Origin: Microbacteriaceae bacterium VKM Ac-2855
GTDB lineage: Bacteria; Actinomycetota; Actinomycetes; Actinomycetales; Microbacteriaceae
NCBI GenBank assembly: GCA_013204985.1
Contig: JABMLG010000003.1
Span: 248,001 to 312,000, forward strand
Direction of reading: 5' to 3'
Length of the DNA: 64,000 nucleotides
Below, in pieces: positions 16,855 through 51,847 of the stretch. Position 1 is the stretch's first letter. Each line of letters starts with the position of its first letter. The notes under the pieces were generated by a model that ran no database searches, was not told the DNA's origin, and worked only from the letters and a program-made list of their open reading frames with translations. Both the position numbers and the translations under genes were made by a program.

Positions 16855-16946
16855 CCGCCTTCTTGCGAGGGACCCCTTCTGTGCGCAAGGGACCCCCGCT
16901 GGGAGGGTCCGTGGCGCACAGGCGGGGTCCCTCGCAGGAAGGCGTC
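16855..16946. repeat. Nested palindrome, copy 2
   Basis: The left arm CTTCTTGCGAGGGACCCC pairs with GGGGTCCCTCGCAGGAAGG on the right, enclosing an imperfect second stem (GTGCGCAAGGGACCCCC against GGAGGGTCCGTGGCGCAC). It reaches the stop codon of the MFS gene (TCA at 16945-16947). The inner stem has diverged more than in copy 1, while the outer word TGCGAGGGACC and its complement are conserved. It lies in the 197-base gap between the subtilase start and the MFS stop, so it can only terminate the leftward MFS transcript before it runs into the subtilase gene. Confidence 0.88.
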
Positions 16947-18279
16947 AGACGGTGCGAGCGGCCAGAGCCTCGTCGCGGGCCAGCTCGTCGCGGGCCAGAT
17001 CTGCGCGGGCGGCGGCGCGCATGCCGTCGTGCCGCACCACCAGGTGCGGCGTCTGTCGCATCCGGTAGCTGACCCGCACGTGCTGTGTGCGCACCAGCCA
17101 CGCCACGCCCACCAGGGCCGCGATGAACCCCGACGTCGCGCCGACGCCGAGCGCCCAGCGCGGGCCGAAGGTGTCGGCGACCCAGCCGATCAGGGGAGCG
17201 CCGATCGGCGTGCCGCCCATGAAGATCGCCATGTACAGCGCCATCACGCGGCCGCGCATGGCGGGATCGGTCGACAGCTGCACGAATCCGTTGGCGGAGG
17301 TCATCAGCGTCTGCGCCGCCAGCCCCACGAACGGCAGCACCAGGGCGAACGTCCACACGCTCGGCATCACCGATGCGGCCAGGAGCGCGAGACCGAAGCC
17401 GGCGGCGGCTCCGAAGATCATGCGGATGCGCGGCCGGTCGCGTCGCGCCGACAGCAGCGCACCGGCGACCGATCCGATCGCGATCGCGGACGACAGGAAG
17501 CCGAATTCGCTCGCCCCCATGTCGAACTCGACCGTCGCCATCGTCGAGGCGAAGATCGGGAAGTTGAGGCCGAACATCCCGATGATCGCCACGATCGTCA
17601 TGATCACGAGGATGTCGGGACGCTTCGAGACGTAACGGAACCCTTCGAGCAGCGCGCCCTTGCCTTTCGACGCGCGCGGGGCGGCACGCAGCTCGCCGAC
17701 GCGCATGTACCGCAGTGAGATCAGCACGCCCGCGAAGCTCACCGCGTTGAGCAGGAACACCCAGCCGGTGCCGATCACGGCGATCAGGATGCCCGCGAGC
17801 GCCGGCCCGATCATCCGCGCGAGGTTGAAGGAGGCGGAGTTGAGCGAGACCGCGTTCGAGAGGTTCTTCTCGTCCACCATCGCCGACACGAACGTCTGCC
17901 GCACCGGAGCGTCCACCGCCGCGACGAAGCCGAGCAGCAGCGCGAAGAGGTAGACCATCCAGAGCTGCACGACGCCGGTGACGACGATGAGGCCGAGGCC
18001 CAGACCGAGCACGCCCATCGCCGCCTGCGTCGCCATCAGCAGCTTGCGACGGTCGAAGCGGTCGGCGATGAGCCCCGAGAACGGCACCATCACGAGCTGC
18101 GGGCCGAACTGCAACGCCATCGTGATGCCGAGCGCCGTCGCGTCGTGATCGGTCAGGTCGTTGATCACGATCCAGTCCTGGGCGGTGCGCTGCATCCAGG
18201 TGCCGATGTTCGACACCATCGCCCCGGCGAACCAGATGCGGTAATTGATCACTGAGAGGGAACGGAACATGGCACTCAT
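16945..18279 (-). CDS. MFS transporter, MFS_3/EntS-like exporter type
   Basis: The 444-residue membrane protein has about twelve transmembrane segments and opens with FRSLSVINYRIWFAGAMVSNIGTWMQRTAQDWIV, characteristic of the MFS_3 group that includes the enterobactin exporter EntS and macrolide exporters. DRFDRRKLL is the loop 2-3 motif. The cytoplasmic C-terminus carries a short repeat (ARDELARDEAL). ATG 18279 shares one base with the marR stop (TGATG), so both are co-transcribed and probably co-regulated. The operator-like TTAGGCTAA sequences upstream of marR would control both. Substrate may be a drug or siderophore; the sequence does not decide. Confidence 0.88.
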   Translation of the reverse strand: MSAMFRSLSVINYRIWFAGAMVSNIGTWMQRTAQDWIVINDLTDHDATALGITMALQFGPQLVMVPFSGLIADRFDRRKLLMATQAAMGVLGLGLGLIVVTGVVQLWMVYLFALLLGFVAAVDAPVRQTFVSAMVDEKNLSNAVSLNSASFNLARMIGPALAGILIAVIGTGWVFLLNAVSFAGVLISLRYMRVGELRAAPRASKGKGALLEGFRYVSKRPDILVIMTIVAIIGMFGLNFPIFASTMATVEFDMGASEFGFLSSAIAIGSVAGALLSARRDRPRIRMIFGAAAGFGLALLAASVMPSVWTFALVLPFVGLAAQTLMTSANGFVQLSTDPAMRGRVMALYMAIFMGGTPIGAPLIGWVADTFGPRWALGVGATSGFIAALVGVAWLVRTQHVRVSYRMRQTPHLVVRHDGMRAAARADLARDELARDEALAARTV

Positions 18280-18710
18280 CAGTCGGTGAGCCTCCGGAGG
18301 ATCGCGGCGGCGTCGGCGAGCGTGGCCCGTTCGTCGGCGGTGAGGTCGGCGAGCTGCTGCACGAGCCAGGCGTTGCGGCTCTCGCGCACCTTGAGCACGA
18401 GGTCGCTGCCCGCGGTGGTGGGGCGGATGCGCGTCACGCGCCCGTCGCGCGCGTCGGGCATCCGCTCGGCGAGGCCGTCGTCCACCAGGCAGTTGACGGT
18501 GCGGGTCATCGAGGGCGGCTTGACCTGCTCGTAGTCGGCCAGCTCGCCGAGGGTCTTCGGGCCTTCGCGGAACAGGTACGCGAGCACGGCGAACATGGTG
18601 TCGCTCATGTCGTGCTGCGCCTTCTCCTTGCGCAACCGGCGGCCGAGTCGGCCGACCGCGACGCGGACGTCCGTAGCGAGTTCTGCCGTACGCGGCTCGA
18701 TGACGTTCAT
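18279..18710 (-). CDS. MarR-family transcriptional regulator
   Basis: The 143-residue protein has the MarR winged-helix fold: LAYLFREGPKTLGELADYEQVKPPSMTRTVNCLVDDGLAER as the recognition helix pair and DARDGRVTRIRPTTAG as the wing. It most likely represses itself and the downstream MFS exporter, releasing on ligand binding. ATG 18710 has no ribosome binding site; instead TAGGCT lies six bases before it, so the mRNA may be leaderless from this start. A palindrome AGTTAGGCTAACT ends immediately upstream of the start codon. Confidence 0.88.
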   Translation of the reverse strand: MNVIEPRTAELATDVRVAVGRLGRRLRKEKAQHDMSDTMFAVLAYLFREGPKTLGELADYEQVKPPSMTRTVNCLVDDGLAERMPDARDGRVTRIRPTTAGSDLVLKVRESRNAWLVQQLADLTADERATLADAAAILRRLTD

Positions 18711-18760: not shown

Positions 18761-19056
18761 CGTCCCGTCGATCGGCAGGCTCGGTGGTTCGGGATGGGCT
18801 AGGTCTGTTCCGTGCCCGGGATCCTGGGCGTTGATCTCGGTGCGGTGGGGGCTGCTGCCGACCGACGGAACACCGGGCGCTCGGCATGCCCGATCGCACG
18901 GCACCGGTCGGCGGCCGCTGCTCGTTCACGCCGGGCATCGCAGTGTGCGCCGGGGCGGTCGGTTACCCCGCGCTGGCCGTCCCGTCGGTCGGCAGGCTCG
19001 GTGGTTGTGGACGGGTTGGGTCTGTTCCCGTGCCCGGGATCCTGCGGGATTCCGGG
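18761..19056. repeat. Left flank repeat block of the bacteriocin island (A1-B1-A2)
   Basis: The word CCCGTCGATCGGCAGGCTCG begins an A segment at 18764, which returns at 18981 with GTCGGTCGGCAGGCTCGG. Between them lies a B segment containing GGGGCTGCTGCCGACCGACGG and GGCCGCTGCTCGTTCA. The period is about 218 bases. GGCAG-type ends of A and CTGCCGACCGACGG of B are inverse complements, so each unit can fold with terminal inverted repeats. The same segments, same orientation, recur at 23037-23322. No coding signature is seen. It resembles a non-autonomous repeat (MITE-like), inferred. Confidence 0.85.
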
Positions 19057-19544
19057 GGTGAGTCCCTCCGGTCAGGCGCGCCATCAAACGATGGGGCCCG
19101 ACCCTCCGACTCCTTCTCCTGATGGCGGCTGCAACCGTCATCTGGATGCTCGTGCGAACTCACTAGTCCAGTGCGGATCCGTGCGAGACCAGGGTTGGCC
19201 GGCGAACATCGCTCGCCTACCCCTGGTGGGAAGGACACGCGGAATCTTTTGGCAACGCCGAGAACCCCGCGACCACAATGAAGGGCCCAGTCGCCACGGC
19301 GGCTGGGCCCTTGCCTGGTCGCACTGACTGCGTTGGCTCGGCTGGGAGGGTGGGGCACCCGAAGCGTGCCACTCTCCCTGTCCGATGCCGCCGAGCGGCG
19401 CTGCGGTGAGATTCCGGGCAAGTGATACGTCTCGCATCCCTACGGTTCCAAGAGGCCCGCGCTGATCGAATGAGTGTTCCGCGCTGGGTCATGACGCAGC
19501 TTTCAGCTCAGACTGCACCCCGCATCGGAGGGCACCTGCGAGAG
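19057..19544. other. Non-coding stretch with one strong hairpin
   Basis: Nothing resembling a gene was recognised in these roughly 490 bases; several overlapping open frames lack ribosome binding sites and family features. The one clear structure is a hairpin with 10-bp arms (AAGGGCCCAG at 19281-19290 and CTGGGCCCTT at 19303-19312), terminator-like in both directions although no adjacent gene needs one. It may be the leftover end of a deleted gene at the island border. Confidence 0.5.
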
Positions 19545-19554
19545 TTGCCAATGT

Positions 19555-19582
19555 TTGCATTTTTGGGGTTTTCTCATATTAT
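19555..19582 (+). promoter_or_regulatory. Promoter of the bacteriocin operon
   Basis: TTGCAT at 19555-19560 and TATTAT at 19577-19582 are separated by 16 bases, a good vegetative -35/-10 pair. The surrounding 60 bases are far more AT-rich than the rest of the window. The transcript would start near 19589 and leave a leader of about 100 bases before the bacteriocin gene. Confidence 0.6.
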
Positions 19583-19693
19583 GCTGATATTCGCTCACTT
19601 GAGTGGAACCGTCGCCGGGGGTAAGGGTCGCGATGGGTGATCCCCATCAACACGCGACGGAGCGTGGAAGATCAACATGAAAAAGAGGGCATC

Positions 19694-20005
19694 ATGCCTT
19701 TATCTCGTAAGCGTGGGTCGCGCCGTTCGCTCATCACGACGTTGGCTCTGGCGGGGACTTTGATCGCGGCGCCCGCAGCGGCAGCGGCGTACACGACGTC
19801 CTATCCGGAGGGTGGGACGTGGATCCATGGCGTCTCGGGTGGCACTGTGTTGTCGTCGTACCAGCAGCCGTCGAAGAACCATCGCGCATCGATCAACAAC
19901 GGGTCACTGCAGCAGACGTCGTGCAAGAGCCCTGGGGTGACCGCCGCGATCAGCGGGCCGGCGCGTGCGTGGACAACGGACTACGCCTACTACTCGTGGT
20001 GCTGA
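19694..20005 (+). CDS. Lactococcin 972-family bacteriocin precursor
   Basis: The 103-residue protein has a Sec signal peptide (basic MPLSRKRGSRR, a hydrophobic core, cleavage near APAAAAA at about residue 32) and a roughly 70-residue mature part. The mature part follows the lactococcin 972 pattern: GGTWIHG early, SSYQQPSKNHRASI in the middle and a C-terminal YAYYSWC where lactococcin 972 has FYYNFW. ATG 19694 is chosen for its AGAGGG site; a longer frame from 19637 adds an implausible leader. Family members bind lipid II and block septum formation. Cys67 and the terminal Cys103 are unusual, as lactococcin 972 has none, and could form a disulfide. The two following genes are the standard partners. 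Confidence 0.9.
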   Translation: MPLSRKRGSRRSLITTLALAGTLIAAPAAAAAYTTSYPEGGTWIHGVSGGTVLSSYQQPSKNHRASINNGSLQQTSCKSPGVTAAISGPARAWTTDYAYYSWC

Positions 20006-20021
20006 TCGTCGCATCATGATG

Positions 20022-20048
20022 GGGGCGGGGCGCCATGCGTCCCGCCCC
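20022..20048 (+). terminator. Attenuator hairpin after the bacteriocin gene
   Basis: GGGGCGGG (20022-20029) and CCCGCCCC (20041-20048) form an 8-bp GC stem with a 11-base loop, followed by TTCT. It sits 17 bases after the bacteriocin stop and ahead of the membrane-protein start. It probably lets most transcripts stop after the structural gene and a minority continue into the transport genes, a usual bacteriocin-operon arrangement. Confidence 0.75.
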
Positions 20049-20067
20049 TTCTGCAAGAGGGGGGTTC

Positions 20068-22134
20068 GTGAGAAGTCGTAGTGTCATCGCTGGATACGTG
20101 ATCGCGATCGTTCTGGCGGTCGTGTTCTCATTCCTGTACGTTCGCGCGTTCGAGGTGCGGGGGCCTCTCTGGACGGCCGGCGAGCAGATGCACGTCAGTA
20201 GCGTTACCACCGCAGAGACGACCGCTGCTGACCTATGCGGGCAGCTGCAGGACTTCGCGCAACGGCACGGAGTCGATGTCGTCCGATTCGTACCGGATGC
20301 GGATCGACCGGACACCATCCGGCACCTTTTCGTCGCAGACGGGGGCGGGGAGGCGTCGCGGTGGCTACGTGACGGGTACGGCGACGCCGACCCGGAAATC
20401 ACAACCACGGTTGCCCCGATTACCGATCTTCACGACACCGATCCGCGCGGGTATTACCTCATCGGCGGCTCCTCGTCGGATGCTCTCGCCGTTCTTTCGC
20501 TGGTCCAGGCTGCGGGATGGACAGGCGAAGTTACTCCCTACCCGAACGCTGGAGATCTCGACAGCTATCTCGCGTTCGGCGATCTCTCCCGCGCTTTCGG
20601 TGTGAGTGTGCTCGCCGTCATCGTGCTGATCGGCGCCGGCACGGTGCTGCGCGGCCGAGCCCACGGAATTCAGCGAATGTCAGGGCGCAGCTCGGCCGGG
20701 ATCCTCCTGCACGAGCTGGCGGCCCTCTTACGTCCCGTTTTGATCTTTGCCGCGGGCACCGTCGCGGTTCTTGCCACAACGATGTACCTCTACAACGGAT
20801 TCGCTCACGCAGCCGCACTCCTCACGCTGGCCTGCAGACTGATCTCGGTCCTGCTTGTCGCCGGTCTGGGCGCGCACGTGGTCGGAATCGTCATTACCGC
20901 CGGCCGCGATGTGCTCGATCAGGTGAAGGGCGAGATCGACGGCGTGTGGGCGCTGGTCGGTGCCTATGCCGTTCGCCTCCCCGCGGTGTTCGTGCTGTTG
21001 AGCATCATCGCCGCTCTTGGCCAGAGCGTTTACTTGGCACAGATTGAAGGACAAACACGCGCGTACTGGGCCCAAGCCGGCGACGCGGTCACACTCACCG
21101 TCAGCGGCAACCTCACCGACACCGAATTGAACGTCGCCCGCAGCACCGTGGCCGAGCTCGCCCGAAAGCGCGACTCCGACCACGGGGTCGTCCTGGCGCA
21201 GCGCGACGCGCTCGCCCCGGCCTTAACCGATGCTCTTGTCGTTAATCAGGAGTACCTCCAGCAGGTGCCTGTCCTTGATACGAACGGTGACCGCCTCACG
21301 ACGGTGCTGAGTGACGCCATCACCGTCCTCGTTCCCGACGACGCCGCCGCGGCGCAGGTCGTTGCCGCACACGCAGCCGCCGCCGACTGGTACCAGTTCG
21401 AACACTCGCTCACCCTCAGCGACATCCCCGACCCTGCGACCGTCCCGATCAACGACGCCCGCACCCAGGCAGGACAGAACCTCTTCACCTTCCGGACGGG
21501 CACGGGCAACGTCATGAACGGGCCAGCCATCGCCGCCAACCCCGTGATCGTCGTGCTTCCCAGCCTGCAGTTCATTCCGCAGAGCGAGCTGTTCGCCGCC
21601 GTCACCAACGGCAGCATCGTTTTCACCGACCCCGACACGCTTCGCGCAGATGTTCGCGCCATGGACCTGAACCCAGCCGTCTCCGCTATCCAGCCCGTCG
21701 CCTACCAAGCGAACGAGAGCTACCGGCAAGCTCTCGGCGCGGTCACGATCAACATCGCAGGACTCGTCGCGGCGATCGTCGTCGTCGCGCTGACTGCTTT
21801 GATCGTCGGGGTCGTCACCGTCGAGAAGAACCGCCAGCGCCTGTTCGTCCAGCACCTCTCCGGATGGTCCTTCGCCGCCACCCACCGAACCACCTTCATC
21901 CTCGAGGCCGGCCTGATCCTCGCCGTCACAGCAATCTCCCTCGCGGCCGCGTGGACTCGGGATCCGCTGACGGTTCAGAGCGTGATCGACACCGGCACCG
22001 TCGACACGGAGAGCTATCTCATCAATCAATCCCTCATCGCACTCGCTACAGCCGGCGCGGCCGCTGCCCTGCTCGTGGCATCCCTGGCCTTAGCCCATGC
22101 GCGAATGCTGCGCAGCCATTCCGCCGATGCGTGA
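20068..22134 (+). CDS. Bacteriocin-associated integral membrane protein (DUF1430 / lactococcin 972 immunity-transport type)
   Basis: The 688-residue protein has an N-terminal helix (IAGYVIAIVLAVVFSFLYVRAFE), helices around residues 175-300, a long extracytoplasmic domain of about 210 residues, and four C-terminal helices. This layout and its place between a lactococcin 972-like gene and an ABC ATPase match the bacteriocin-associated membrane protein family. It is proposed to be the permease half of an exporter or the immunity component. GTG 20068 is preferred because AGAGGGGGG lies just upstream; ATG 20035 would sit inside the attenuator hairpin. The C-terminal region resembles a FtsX-like permease core, so an ABC permease role with the downstream ATPase is plausible. 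Confidence 0.85.
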   Translation: MRSRSVIAGYVIAIVLAVVFSFLYVRAFEVRGPLWTAGEQMHVSSVTTAETTAADLCGQLQDFAQRHGVDVVRFVPDADRPDTIRHLFVADGGGEASRWLRDGYGDADPEITTTVAPITDLHDTDPRGYYLIGGSSSDALAVLSLVQAAGWTGEVTPYPNAGDLDSYLAFGDLSRAFGVSVLAVIVLIGAGTVLRGRAHGIQRMSGRSSAGILLHELAALLRPVLIFAAGTVAVLATTMYLYNGFAHAAALLTLACRLISVLLVAGLGAHVVGIVITAGRDVLDQVKGEIDGVWALVGAYAVRLPAVFVLLSIIAALGQSVYLAQIEGQTRAYWAQAGDAVTLTVSGNLTDTELNVARSTVAELARKRDSDHGVVLAQRDALAPALTDALVVNQEYLQQVPVLDTNGDRLTTVLSDAITVLVPDDAAAAQVVAAHAAAADWYQFEHSLTLSDIPDPATVPINDARTQAGQNLFTFRTGTGNVMNGPAIAANPVIVVLPSLQFIPQSELFAAVTNGSIVFTDPDTLRADVRAMDLNPAVSAIQPVAYQANESYRQALGAVTINIAGLVAAIVVVALTALIVGVVTVEKNRQRLFVQHLSGWSFAATHRTTFILEAGLILAVTAISLAAAWTRDPLTVQSVIDTGTVDTESYLINQSLIALATAGAAAALLVASLALAHARMLRSHSADA

Positions 22135-22148
22135 CCCCAGGAGCCCTC

Positions 22149-22778
22149 ATGATCACAATCACCAACTTCGACAAGAGCTACGGCAGACGCCACCTCTGGC
22201 ATGACCTGAGCTTCACCGTTCCCACCGGACGCCTCCTCGCGCTCACCGGACCCAGCGGAAGCGGGAAATCCACCCTCCTGAACTGCATCGGCCTTCTCGA
22301 CGCGCCCGACTCGGGCAGCATCGACGCAGACGGAGAAGAACTCACCCGCCTCCGCACGCGAGCGGCACGCGAATTCCGCCGCTACCGCCTCGGCTACCTC
22401 TTCCAGAACTACGCCCTCGTGGATACCGCCACCGTCGAACAGAATCTCGCCCTCGCGGTCGTCGAGCGACGAGGACGCGCCGGACGGTTTAACGACGCCC
22501 TCGACCGCGTCGGCCTACACGGACGGGCACGAGAGAAGGTCTCACGCCTCAGCGGAGGAGAACAACAGCGAGTAGCGCTCGCGCGTCTCCTCGTCAAAAG
22601 CCCCGCAATCGTCCTCGCTGACGAACCAACGGGAGCCCTCGACGCCGACAATGCCGACACCGTCTTCGACGTGCTCACAGAGATCGCCGACCGCGGAGCC
22701 AGCGTCATCATCGCCACCCACGACGACCGCATCGCGGGCCGCTGCCACGAACACGTTCAGCTCGTCGCCCCTGACTGA
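22149..22778 (+). CDS. ABC transporter ATP-binding protein of the bacteriocin system
   Basis: This 209-residue ATPase has Walker A GPSGSGKST, Q-loop LFQNYALVD, signature LSGGEQQRVALAR, Walker B IVLADEPTGALD and the switch His in IIATHDDR. It is of the MacB/LolD size class used with FtsX-like permeases, as in the putative lactococcin 972 ABC family. AGGAG lies six bases before ATG 22149, and it follows the membrane protein by 14 bases. Together they would export, or protect from, the bacteriocin. Confidence 0.93.
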   Translation: MITITNFDKSYGRRHLWHDLSFTVPTGRLLALTGPSGSGKSTLLNCIGLLDAPDSGSIDADGEELTRLRTRAAREFRRYRLGYLFQNYALVDTATVEQNLALAVVERRGRAGRFNDALDRVGLHGRAREKVSRLSGGEQQRVALARLLVKSPAIVLADEPTGALDADNADTVFDVLTEIADRGASVIIATHDDRIAGRCHEHVQLVAPD

Positions 22779-23036
22779 AAAGCAGCGGGCGCCCACTTCA
22801 GCGACCCGCCACCTCCTCCAATGTGTATTCGACGCTGGGTTGGGCCGCGATCCGCGCGCAGCGCCTTGGATCCGGCAACGGTTGGTGAGCCGTGCCGACG
22901 AGCAACAACTGGGTCGTGCGGAGCGTTGCAGCTGCGATCATGAGCCATGGCCGACGATCGAAACCTGAACTAACCCACCCTCGAAGGACACCCGGCTGCA
23001 CCACTCCACGAGACTTGGCCGGACTTGACCGACTCC
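22779..23036. other. Non-coding end of the bacteriocin island
   Basis: No gene is supported in these 258 bases. A leftward open frame ending at 22798 has a hydrophobic stretch (MIAAATLRTTQLLLVGTAH) and a protein-like end (SVEYTLEEVAGR), which could be a remnant of a gene displaced by the island, but its upstream part runs through the repeat block and has no family features. Confidence 0.35.
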
Positions 23037-23322
23037 GGGCGTTGGTCTCGGTGTGGTGGAGCTGCTGCCGACCGACGGTACGCGGCGCGCTGGGTGTGCC
23101 CGATCGCCGGGCGGCGGTTGCGGGCCGCTGCTCGTTCAGGCCGGTCGCCCCGGAGTGCGTCTGAGAGGTCGGTCGCCCGGGGTGGTCGTCCCGTCGATCG
23201 GCAGGCTCGGTGGTTCGGGATGGGCTGGGCCTGTTCCATTCCCGAGATCCTGCGGGATTCCGGGCGTCGGTGTCGGCGTGGTCGGGGCTGCTGCCGACCG
23301 ACGGGACGCCAGGCGCTCGCTC
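23037..23322. repeat. Right flank repeat block of the bacteriocin island (B2-A3-B3')
   Basis: B (GTTGGTCTCGGTGTGGTG, CTGCTGCCGACCGACGG, GGGCCGCTGCTCGTTCA) is followed by A (CCCGTCGATCGGCAGGCTCG, GGGATGGGCTGGGCCTGTTCC) at 23187 and a partial B (GGGCTGCTGCCGACCGACGG) ending about 23304-23322. These are the same elements as at 18761-19056, in direct orientation, about 4.2 kb apart. Recombination between the two blocks would delete the whole bacteriocin cassette. Confidence 0.85.
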
Positions 23323-23362
23323 ACCCGGGCGGGCCGGCCGCAAGCACTCGGCAGGGAGCGGC

Positions 23363-24094
23363 TCAGCCCCGGCGCGCGGCGGAGCGCACGGCGCCCACCG
23401 AGGCCGCCACCACCAGGGCGATTCCCAACGCCTCCAGCCAGCTGAGCCGCTGGCCGAGCACGAGGAAGCCGCTGAGCGCGGCGGCTCCCGGCGAGAGCGA
23501 CATCAGGATCGAGAACGTCGACGACCGGATGCGGCGCAGCGCCAGCAGCTCGAGCGCGTACGGCACGACGGAGGAGAGCACGGCGACCGCGAGCCCGAGC
23601 GCGAGCACGGGGGGAAGGATCAGCGCCGAACCGGCCGTGGCGATGCCGAACGGCAGCGACACGATGGCCCCCGCGGTCATGGCCAGCGCCAGCCCGTCGA
23701 GCTTGGGGAACCGGCCGCCGGTGCGGGCGGCGAACACGATGTAGCCCGCCCAGAGCACCGCGGCCAGCAGCGCGAACGCGACACCGAGCGGATCGAGGCT
23801 GCCGAAGCCGCCCTGCGAGAGCACCACCACCCCGGCCAGCGCCAGCACGGCCCAGAGCACGCTGGTCCAGCGTCGGCCGGCGATCACCGACAGGGTCAGT
23901 GGGCCGAGCACCTCCAAAGTGACCGCCGCTCCCTGCGGGATCCGTGCGATCGCCTCGTAGTACGCCGCGTTCATCCCACCCAGCGCGAGCCCGTACAGCC
24001 CGACCGTGATCCAGTCGGCCCGGCTGTAACCCCGCAACGTCGGCCGGCAGATCGCCAGCAGCACCAGGGCGGAGAGCACGAGCCGCAGCGTCAC
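23363..24094 (-). CDS. EamA/RhtA-family exporter with no normal start codon
   Basis: From GTG 24094 the product is 243 residues with about eight to nine hydrophobic helices and the paired EamA repeat pattern (GLALGGMNAAYYEAIARIPQG; a C-terminal ALRRIRSSTFSILMSLSPGAAA). Such RhtA-like carriers export amino acids or metabolites. The open frame clearly continues upstream to about 24200, encoding the expected first helix (AAAIGLVLGSVASVQLGASF), but contains no ATG, GTG or TTG before a stop near 24316. A GGGAGGA site at about 24214-24220 points to a lost start close to 24205. Either a rare start is used or the gene is decaying or mis-sequenced. It overlaps the phosphatase stop region in that longer form. 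Confidence 0.75.
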   Translation of the reverse strand: MTLRLVLSALVLLAICRPTLRGYSRADWITVGLYGLALGGMNAAYYEAIARIPQGAAVTLEVLGPLTLSVIAGRRWTSVLWAVLALAGVVVLSQGGFGSLDPLGVAFALLAAVLWAGYIVFAARTGGRFPKLDGLALAMTAGAIVSLPFGIATAGSALILPPVLALGLAVAVLSSVVPYALELLALRRIRSSTFSILMSLSPGAAALSGFLVLGQRLSWLEALGIALVVAASVGAVRSAARRG

Positions 24095-50941: not shown

Positions 50942-51847
50942 ATGTCCGACACCGATGTCACCCACAGCTACACGGATGCGTACGGCATCCGAATCCATTA
51001 CCGGCGGTGGCTCGCCGCATCGCCTCGAGCGGTGGTTCAGATCGCGCACGGTGTGGGGGAACACTCGGGTCGCTACCGGCGCGTCGCCGCGGCCCTGGTC
51101 GACGCCGGGTATTCGGTGTACGCCGACGATCACCGCGGCCACGGTCTGACCGGGCGCGAGCAGAATAGCGGCGATGTGTCGCAGCAAGGGCGCCTCGGCC
51201 CGGGCGGGTTGCGCGCGACGGCGGATGCGGTGCACCAGTTCACCGAAGTGATCGCGGCCGAATCGCCGGGCCTGCCGATCGTGCTGCTCGGCCATTCGTG
51301 GGGCTCGTTCCTGGCGCAGATGATCGTGAACTCGCACGCGCGCGACTACGACGCGCTGGTGTTGTCGGGATCGTCGCTGCGGCTGCCCGGGTGGCTGAAC
51401 TCCGGCGACCTCAACAAGCGCTGGCGCGGCCCGGCGGCCCACGGCTTGGAGTGGTTGTCGCGCGAGAGCAGCGTCTGGCAGGAGTTCCGTGACGACCCGC
51501 TCACGTTCGAGGAGACGTTGCAGGACCGCTTCGGAGTGCTCGACACCCTCCGTCTTGCGGGCATCCCTGGTCGTCGCCTCGAACGGGATCTGCCGAGCTA
51601 CCTCGTGGTCGGGGCCGATGACCCCGTCGGGGGTCCGCGCGCGGTCGAGGCGCTCGCGCGTGTCTACCGCCGACGGTCGCGGCTGACGGATGTGACGGTG
51701 CGGGTCTATCCGCAAGCCCGTCACGAACTGTTCAACGAAAGCAACCGCGACGAGGTCATCGCGGACCTGATCGCGTGGCTCGACGGTCACCTCCCGGCGC
51801 GGGTGTCGGGAGAGGGCGAGCAGGGCCCGGCGCGGGCATCGGAATAG
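50942..51847 (+). CDS. Alpha/beta hydrolase, monoacylglycerol-lipase-like
   Basis: The 301-residue protein is a Hydrolase_4 type lipase: IHYRRWLAASPRAVVQIAHGVGEHSGRY, the nucleophile elbow GHSWGS, Asp in VVGADDPVGG and His in ARHELFNES complete the triad. It lacks a signal peptide and likely cleaves acyl esters in the cytoplasm. The last residues (GEGEQGPARASE) are encoded by a 33-bp tandem repeat which also contains the stop, so the C-terminus is recent. Confidence 0.9.
   Translation: MSDTDVTHSYTDAYGIRIHYRRWLAASPRAVVQIAHGVGEHSGRYRRVAAALVDAGYSVYADDHRGHGLTGREQNSGDVSQQGRLGPGGLRATADAVHQFTEVIAAESPGLPIVLLGHSWGSFLAQMIVNSHARDYDALVLSGSSLRLPGWLNSGDLNKRWRGPAAHGLEWLSRESSVWQEFRDDPLTFEETLQDRFGVLDTLRLAGIPGRRLERDLPSYLVVGADDPVGGPRAVEALARVYRRRSRLTDVTVRVYPQARHELFNESNRDEVIADLIAWLDGHLPARVSGEGEQGPARASE

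Follow-up and report, generated by a model that had tools for sequence, protein, structure and literature searches.

A lactococcin 972-type operon inside a split copy of a dispersed extragenic repeat in a Rathayibacter-lineage actinobacterium

Introduction

An operon resembling that of lactococcin 972 lies between blocks of same-direction repeats in genome G000 (4.7 Mb), which belongs to a plant-associated actinobacterium of the Rathayibacter lineage, and the locus raises the question of whether these repeats are the borders of a cassette or the place where it landed. The locus is part of a stretch of 64,000 nt (C20:248001-312000; the window) and was compared with 14 other Rathayibacter genomes (congeners), including the closest relative, G012; coordinates below are window positions (prefixed w where other genomes are aligned), unless a contig is named. 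Probably, the full operon was gained in the spacer between a MarR-type regulator gene and an EamA-family transporter gene along with a three-copy array of an arm-core-arm repeat, the cassette having entered at the core of one copy, and the repeat consists of protein sites. The flanking repeats, between which a first-pass annotation of the window had placed the operon, look like its landing place and not its private borders, and the same element was found at 10 further places in the genome. The operon alone is ordinary, while the repeat is an unusual variant among interspersed extragenic repeats.

A Repeat Unit Split by the Operon

Three repeat units accompany the operon, and the middle one (unit B) is divided into two halves with the operon between them.

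18762-18871, plus strand: repeat unit A, whole; arms 18762-18778 and 18855-18871, arm spacing 91 (one helical turn short)
18979-19056, plus strand: left half of split unit B, with left arm and core, ending GATTCCGGG (19048-19056)
19057-23030, plus strand: cassette between the halves of unit B, 3,974 bp
23031-23081, plus strand: right half of split unit B, starting GACTCCGGG (23031-23039) in the core; right arm 23065-23081
23188-23307, plus strand: repeat unit C, whole; arms 23188-23204 and 23291-23307, arm spacing 101

The halves of unit B overlap by 9 bp (GATTCCGGG / GACTCCGGG), and beyond the split points they resemble the missing half no more than random window stretches do. The possibility that the inner units are both whole but decayed was rejected, local alignment past the split points being below the background mean in five of five comparisons. 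The blocks on the two sides do run in the same direction, as the first-pass annotation had it, and the direct repeats D1, D2 and D3 have copies 4.2-4.4 kb apart. D1 (66 nt) begins at 18761, 18978 and 23187, with copies 76 and 92% identical to the reference, while D2 (121 nt) and D3 (67 nt) are 77 and 84% alike. The repeat unit had been put at about 220 bp; that figure holds as the period of the array (217-226 bp) but not as the size of the unit, which is 110-120 bp followed by a spacer of 106-107 bp. The 17-mer of the repeat, with at most 3 mismatches allowed, has four matches in the window (three in the blocks and one at 51260) against 0.35 expected, and none of 100 shuffles reached four.

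The Island and Its Empty Sites

The genes on either side of the island are conserved neighbors in the congeners.

16945-18279: MFS transporter gene, after the MarR gene
18279-18710, minus strand: MarR-type regulator gene, the left flank gene
23363-24094, minus strand: EamA-family transporter gene, the right flank gene

Of the 14 congeners, all but G002 have a clear orthologue of the transporter on the left flank. The block w18744-w23372 is missing from all 13 congeners in which both flanks can be aligned, and there the flanks stand together, 30-531 bp apart. In G012 the transporter is 94% identical, and the alignment breaks off at w18744 and picks up again at w23372, with 97 bp in between, so that presence and absence change at the outer limits of the blocks, much as had been predicted. 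Judged from these alignments, the island is real in comparative terms, and we infer that the cassette was acquired as a whole. The accompanying prediction, that one repeat copy would remain in empty sites, failed: no repeat arm (≤3 mismatches) was found in the 13 empty-site spacers. Gene remnants were also looked for in 18812-19637 and 22801-23343, and none of the six open reading frames (ORFs) there had a Pfam match at E 1. The MarR-EamA spacer varies in length among congeners, and repeats of another type (GTATCGAGA / TCTCGATAC) are found in it in five of the 13 (L031-L035).

The Lactococcin 972-Type Operon

The first-pass annotation had named a lactococcin 972-type set of three genes, and this identification stands, with bacteriocin, membrane protein and ATPase genes in that order at 19694-22778.

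19554-19582, plus strand: promoter-like site, sigma-70-like TTTGCA-17-TATTAT, in an AT-rich dip (consensus match only)
19694-20005, plus strand: lactococcin 972 family bacteriocin precursor, 103 aa (PF09683 match and predicted fold)
20035-22134, plus strand: multi-pass membrane protein, 699 aa, presumed immunity/permease partner
22149-22778, plus strand: ABC transporter ATPase, 209 aa (best match TIGR03608)

The bacteriocin matches PF09683 (Lactococcin_972) with an E value of 7.2e-10 and 39.7 bits, above the cut-off of 22, and is below the cut-off for TIGR01653 (25.7 of 32.1 bits). The precursor has a basic N-terminus and a hydrophobic segment at residues 13-31, read from the sequence without a signal-peptide predictor, and its mature part presumably begins near residue 33. 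A PDB search with a profile of the mature part and four Rathayibacter relatives ranked the family first, with 9hkj at E 1.7e-4 and 2lgn, which is lactococcin 972, at E 8e-4. A structure predicted from five sequences reached a mean pLDDT of 82 in the best of five models and 38 in the worst, and its best matches were these same two entries, the two solved members of the family; according to the model, the peptide has the lactococcin 972 beta fold. Two cysteines, at mature positions 45 and 71, are invariant in the window peptide and the four aligned relatives, whereas the profile-aligned part of lactococcin 972 has none, and the pair suggests a disulfide that is absent from that part of lactococcin 972.

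Several search results speak against this assignment of the genes. With the single sequence, two antibody chains (E 0.0091 and 0.026) stood above lactococcin 972 (0.029) in the PDB, so that this search was ambiguous, and only the profile search ranked the lactococcin 972 family first. The only NCBIfam match of the membrane protein, TIGR01654 (bacteriocin-associated integral membrane protein), covers only the C-terminal part and, at 33.7 bits, falls far short of the cut-off of 189.35. TIGR03608 (putative bacteriocin export ABC transporter), the best of 201 NCBIfam matches of the ATPase, likewise stays under its cut-off (222.5 against 254.85 bits). Neither protein was assigned to its respective model.

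The available text of PMC11796350 describes lactococcin 972-like peptides as presumably exported through Sec, interacting with lipid II and inhibiting septum formation, and their two partner proteins as presumed, without experimental proof, to serve immunity and transport. By analogy, the same export and the same action on lipid II and the septum would be expected of the window peptide.

The membrane protein has about eight hydrophobic stretches (10 windows, two overlapping pairs), and it may in fact be translated from a GTG a few codons further in, since the copies of several congeners begin VRSRS or VRSKS. The four named loci that it matched are all from Rathayibacter sp. With scoring limited to the two best candidates in each genome, relatives at E ≤ 1e-100 were found in five of 398 genomes of the family, its own included and all of them Rathayibacter, and at E ≤ 1e-50 in two of 396 genomes of the order, its own and one other (33% identical). 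Among 72,556 plasmid records there were two distant matches (28-30%, Streptomyces). The ATPase carries Walker A and the LSGGE signature, with no match to a simple Walker B pattern. All 17 PADLOC matches fell on this protein (best mads_3, 2.1e-29) and were taken as generic ATPase similarity, so a defense system was rejected. The promoter region is AT-richer than its surroundings, in agreement with the first-pass annotation, since 19540-19599 has 38% GC, compared with 63% in 19060-19640 and 65% in 20035-22778; one sigma-70-like site was observed in the 4.1 kb scanned, where 0.4 were expected.

The same three genes occur in seven of the 14 congeners, in places other than between MarR and EamA. 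The window proteins are 71-73% (ATPase), 57-70% (bacteriocin) and 45-46% (membrane protein) identical to those of the congeners, while the seven congener loci among themselves show 83-98%, 57-95% and 63-87%, respectively. Divergence from the other loci of the genus is far greater for the membrane partner (window 20035-22134 compared with L053-L059) than for the bacteriocin. By these identities, the partner proteins look outgroup-like and the bacteriocin does not, for which gene exchange or a different constraint would both do. Nucleotide similarity to the congener loci is confined to 19715-22774, and thus about 640 bp before the operon and 250 bp after it have no counterpart there.

Structure of the Repeat

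A unit consists of two inverted 17-bp arms around a conserved core close to CCGCGNGATNCCG, which lies midway between the arms (13 units, aligned and oriented); the remaining interior is unconserved. The 24 nt beside the arm have a mean identity of 34% over the 13 units against 31% expected from composition, and so the internal sequence common to copies of a miniature inverted-repeat transposable element was not found. With the C3 array counted once, the arm spacing is 100-102 bp in 11 of 14 units and 90 or 91 bp, one helical turn less, in the other three. Within a unit the arms change independently, with one shared change among 40 differences at 323 positions, 18 of these differences being in the C3 array. 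The longest perfect self-stem is 2-4 bp in 36 of 38 arms and 5 and 6 bp in the other two, and 22 of the 38 arms begin CGTC. Twenty sequences were folded, among them C1:137767 (an arm match inside an ORF, without a partner arm and outside the 19 units described below), and the inner sequence gave no help to the fold. With arms that change independently, no self-stem above 6 bp and an interior that does not assist folding, the repeat looks like the paired sites of a DNA-bound protein and not like a selected stem. An RNA element was also considered and rejected, the sole Rfam match in 10 loci (38.6 kb) being to a miRNA family that scored 28.8 bits where the gathering score is 100.

Distribution of the Repeat

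A 16-bp arm sequence (≤2 mismatches) occurs 55 times in the genome against seven times for the reversed control. Unpartnered arm matches at 2 mismatches were treated as background, and 19 inverted-arm units were recognized at 11 places, the window included; C12:445744 and C20:561770 were counted as units though their own arms differ at 5 and 4 positions, respectively. Six units form one tandem array at C3 with a period of about 206 bp. When ORFs were sorted by GC at codon positions, no unit lay within the body of a likely gene; the 5' extension of the longest ORF enters the unit at C4:9600, C20:215299, C20:561770 and C22:236090, a placement that depends on the start chosen. Across the 398 family genomes the arm-pair pattern has 13 matches in this genome and one in each of two others, which are taken as chance, and it has none in the nine congeners of that sample. 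Single arms (≤1 mismatch) give no exact match in the 14 congeners and at most three matches per genome, compared with at most four for the reversed control. The C3 array matched none of the plasmid records, and two stretches of viral contigs that fitted the arm-pair pattern lacked a full 17-bp arm and were dismissed as chance.

Six of the ten other places (all except C4, C5, C20:561 and C22) were compared with relatives. The C3 array lies within 4.65 kb of DNA of its own, where G011 has about 330 bp; at C12:445, 1.02 kb is taken up by the unit together with a hydrolase-like ORF, compared with 161 bp in G012; and at C20:243, a 1.4-kb stretch without alignment to G012 contains the units and an adjacent 195-codon ORF. 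The unit at C12:53 stands alone in a spacer of 177 bp (107 bp in the relative), and the spacer at C3:42 (618 bp against 263 bp) is without a gene, while C20:215 did not align to the G012 pieces compared. By this comparison, extra or different genes beside the repeat, seen in the window and at three of the six places, not at two and open at one, are a tendency and not a rule.

The 4.65-kb variable region at C3 (C3:29451-34100, L091) has EamA-like and luciferase-like ORFs (named by eye) around the six-unit array, and G012 has an EamA-like ORF near the same flank in a different arrangement. On the same contig, C3:38268-38346 (L091:9769-9846) is an unrelated long-stem palindrome of about 78 bp, the surrounding 105 nt of which fold at -91 kcal/mol; about 36 partial matches to it (both strands counted) were found in G012.

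Origin of the Island

In the explanation that we favor and consider probable, this Rathayibacter lineage gained the operon, with its secreted bacteriocin, membrane partner and ATPase, between the MarR and EamA genes. Three copies of the dispersed repeat would have come along with it, or the array was already resident, and the operon would have come to lie inside the middle copy. The repeat would work as double-stranded DNA, its inverted arms and core, held in one helical phase, being putative protein sites. The core would be the entry point of the cassette, through targeted insertion or site-specific exchange, and the paired blocks could afterwards serve homologous recombination.

A number of observations count against this explanation. 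The 9-bp overlap contains one mismatch and so proves neither a target duplication nor an att site. Terminal inverted repeats were not found at the cassette ends (the score there was equalled by 3474 of 5000 random pairs), and transposon ends were rejected on that ground; no transposase was found in the insert, and the recombinase search covered one family. For the three short units the phasing test has little weight (about 1% for a simple null), the degenerate arm of one of them, C20:561770, was placed by eye, and the arm at C12:445744 is degenerate as well. Finally, the split core is a single case, and by our arithmetic a random cut in the 226-bp period hits the 14-bp core about 6% of the time. 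Targeted insertion, site-specific exchange and accident cannot be told apart from one case.

Alternatively, the repeat blocks may have been homology arms by which the operon enters or leaves through homologous recombination between similar arrays, the split of the core being an old accident. Blocks that run in the same direction and are 76-92% alike suit this account, as does the coincidence of island edges with block edges, yet it appears unlikely: the 13 empty sites hold neither an array nor an arm, which leaves exchange between resident arrays without an example, and the original split of unit B stays unexplained. It is equally doubtful that a short intergenic repeat and an operon merely accumulated in a dumping-ground spacer without influencing each other. 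This spacer is variable in length and in five of 13 congeners holds the different GTATCGAGA-type repeat, and variability is a known property of spacers rich in repeats, with E. coli strain-specific stretches associated with bacterial interspersed mosaic elements (BIMEs) in the portion of PMC1525189 available. Coincidence does not, however, account for a cassette that lies inside a unit at the core and does not merely adjoin units, and the units at C3 and C12:445 also lie in DNA that is additional by comparison with relatives.

A bolder version of targeted entry makes arm-core-arm the target of a recombination system not yet described, one that would capture genes at the core; the lactococcin operon would be one captured cassette, and other units would mark sites of gene entry or exit. 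This version seems improbable. Also improbable is an ordinary inverted dimer of repetitive extragenic palindromic (REP) sequences (a BIME, a REP doublet forming a hairpin (REPIN) or a CGTC-tagged REP), moved by a REP-associated tyrosine transposase (RAYT) or another transposase: the inverted pairs, tandem arrays and extragenic placement are BIME-like (PMC2817692, in part), CGTC starts 22 of the 38 arms, and the relevant part of PMC3733652 reports variable spacers in REP dimers as well as REPs that lack their own transposase, but Y1_Tnp (PF01797) was found in none of the four genomes searched, this one included, against five of 14 control genomes, the two arms of a unit do not co-vary, and single arms are not palindromes, while each CGTC REP in that same part is a palindrome with an 8-9 bp stem.

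In about twenty copies, conserved arms and core, spacing kept to one helical phase and unconstrained filler together look as the footprint left by a protein that binds or recombines DNA would, and of the species searched one has them. Were that protein a recombinase, antimicrobial genes would have a new way into actinobacterial genomes; if it structures the chromosome, the units are ready-made binding sites.

Comparison with Known Systems

A literature search found no paper on Rathayibacter with repetitive extragenic palindromic sequences and none on REPIN and RAYT in Actinobacteria. As far as PMC1525189 and PMC3733652 could be consulted, REPs, BIMEs and REPINs serve as insertion targets, and the window is like them in its extragenic inverted pairs, tandem arrays and interruption by foreign DNA; spacers conserved in length and variable in sequence, as in some REP dimers (PMC3733652, same part), are a further likeness. 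It differs in that the insert has no transposase, the genome lacks Y1_Tnp, the arms are neither palindromic nor co-varying, and there is a conserved core. Correia/NEMIS elements, according to the part of PMC2229807 at hand, are about 100-155 bp long with inverted ends and, in the longer form, an internal protein-binding motif, all of which recalls the window repeat; most of them are A+T-rich with TA ends, whereas the window repeat is not, and its interior is unconserved outside the core. The operon itself is closest to its namesake, and the window locus resembles the lactococcin 972 family (PF09683; 2lgn, 9hkj) in profile, predicted beta fold, a presumed leader followed by a domain of about 71 residues, and gene order.
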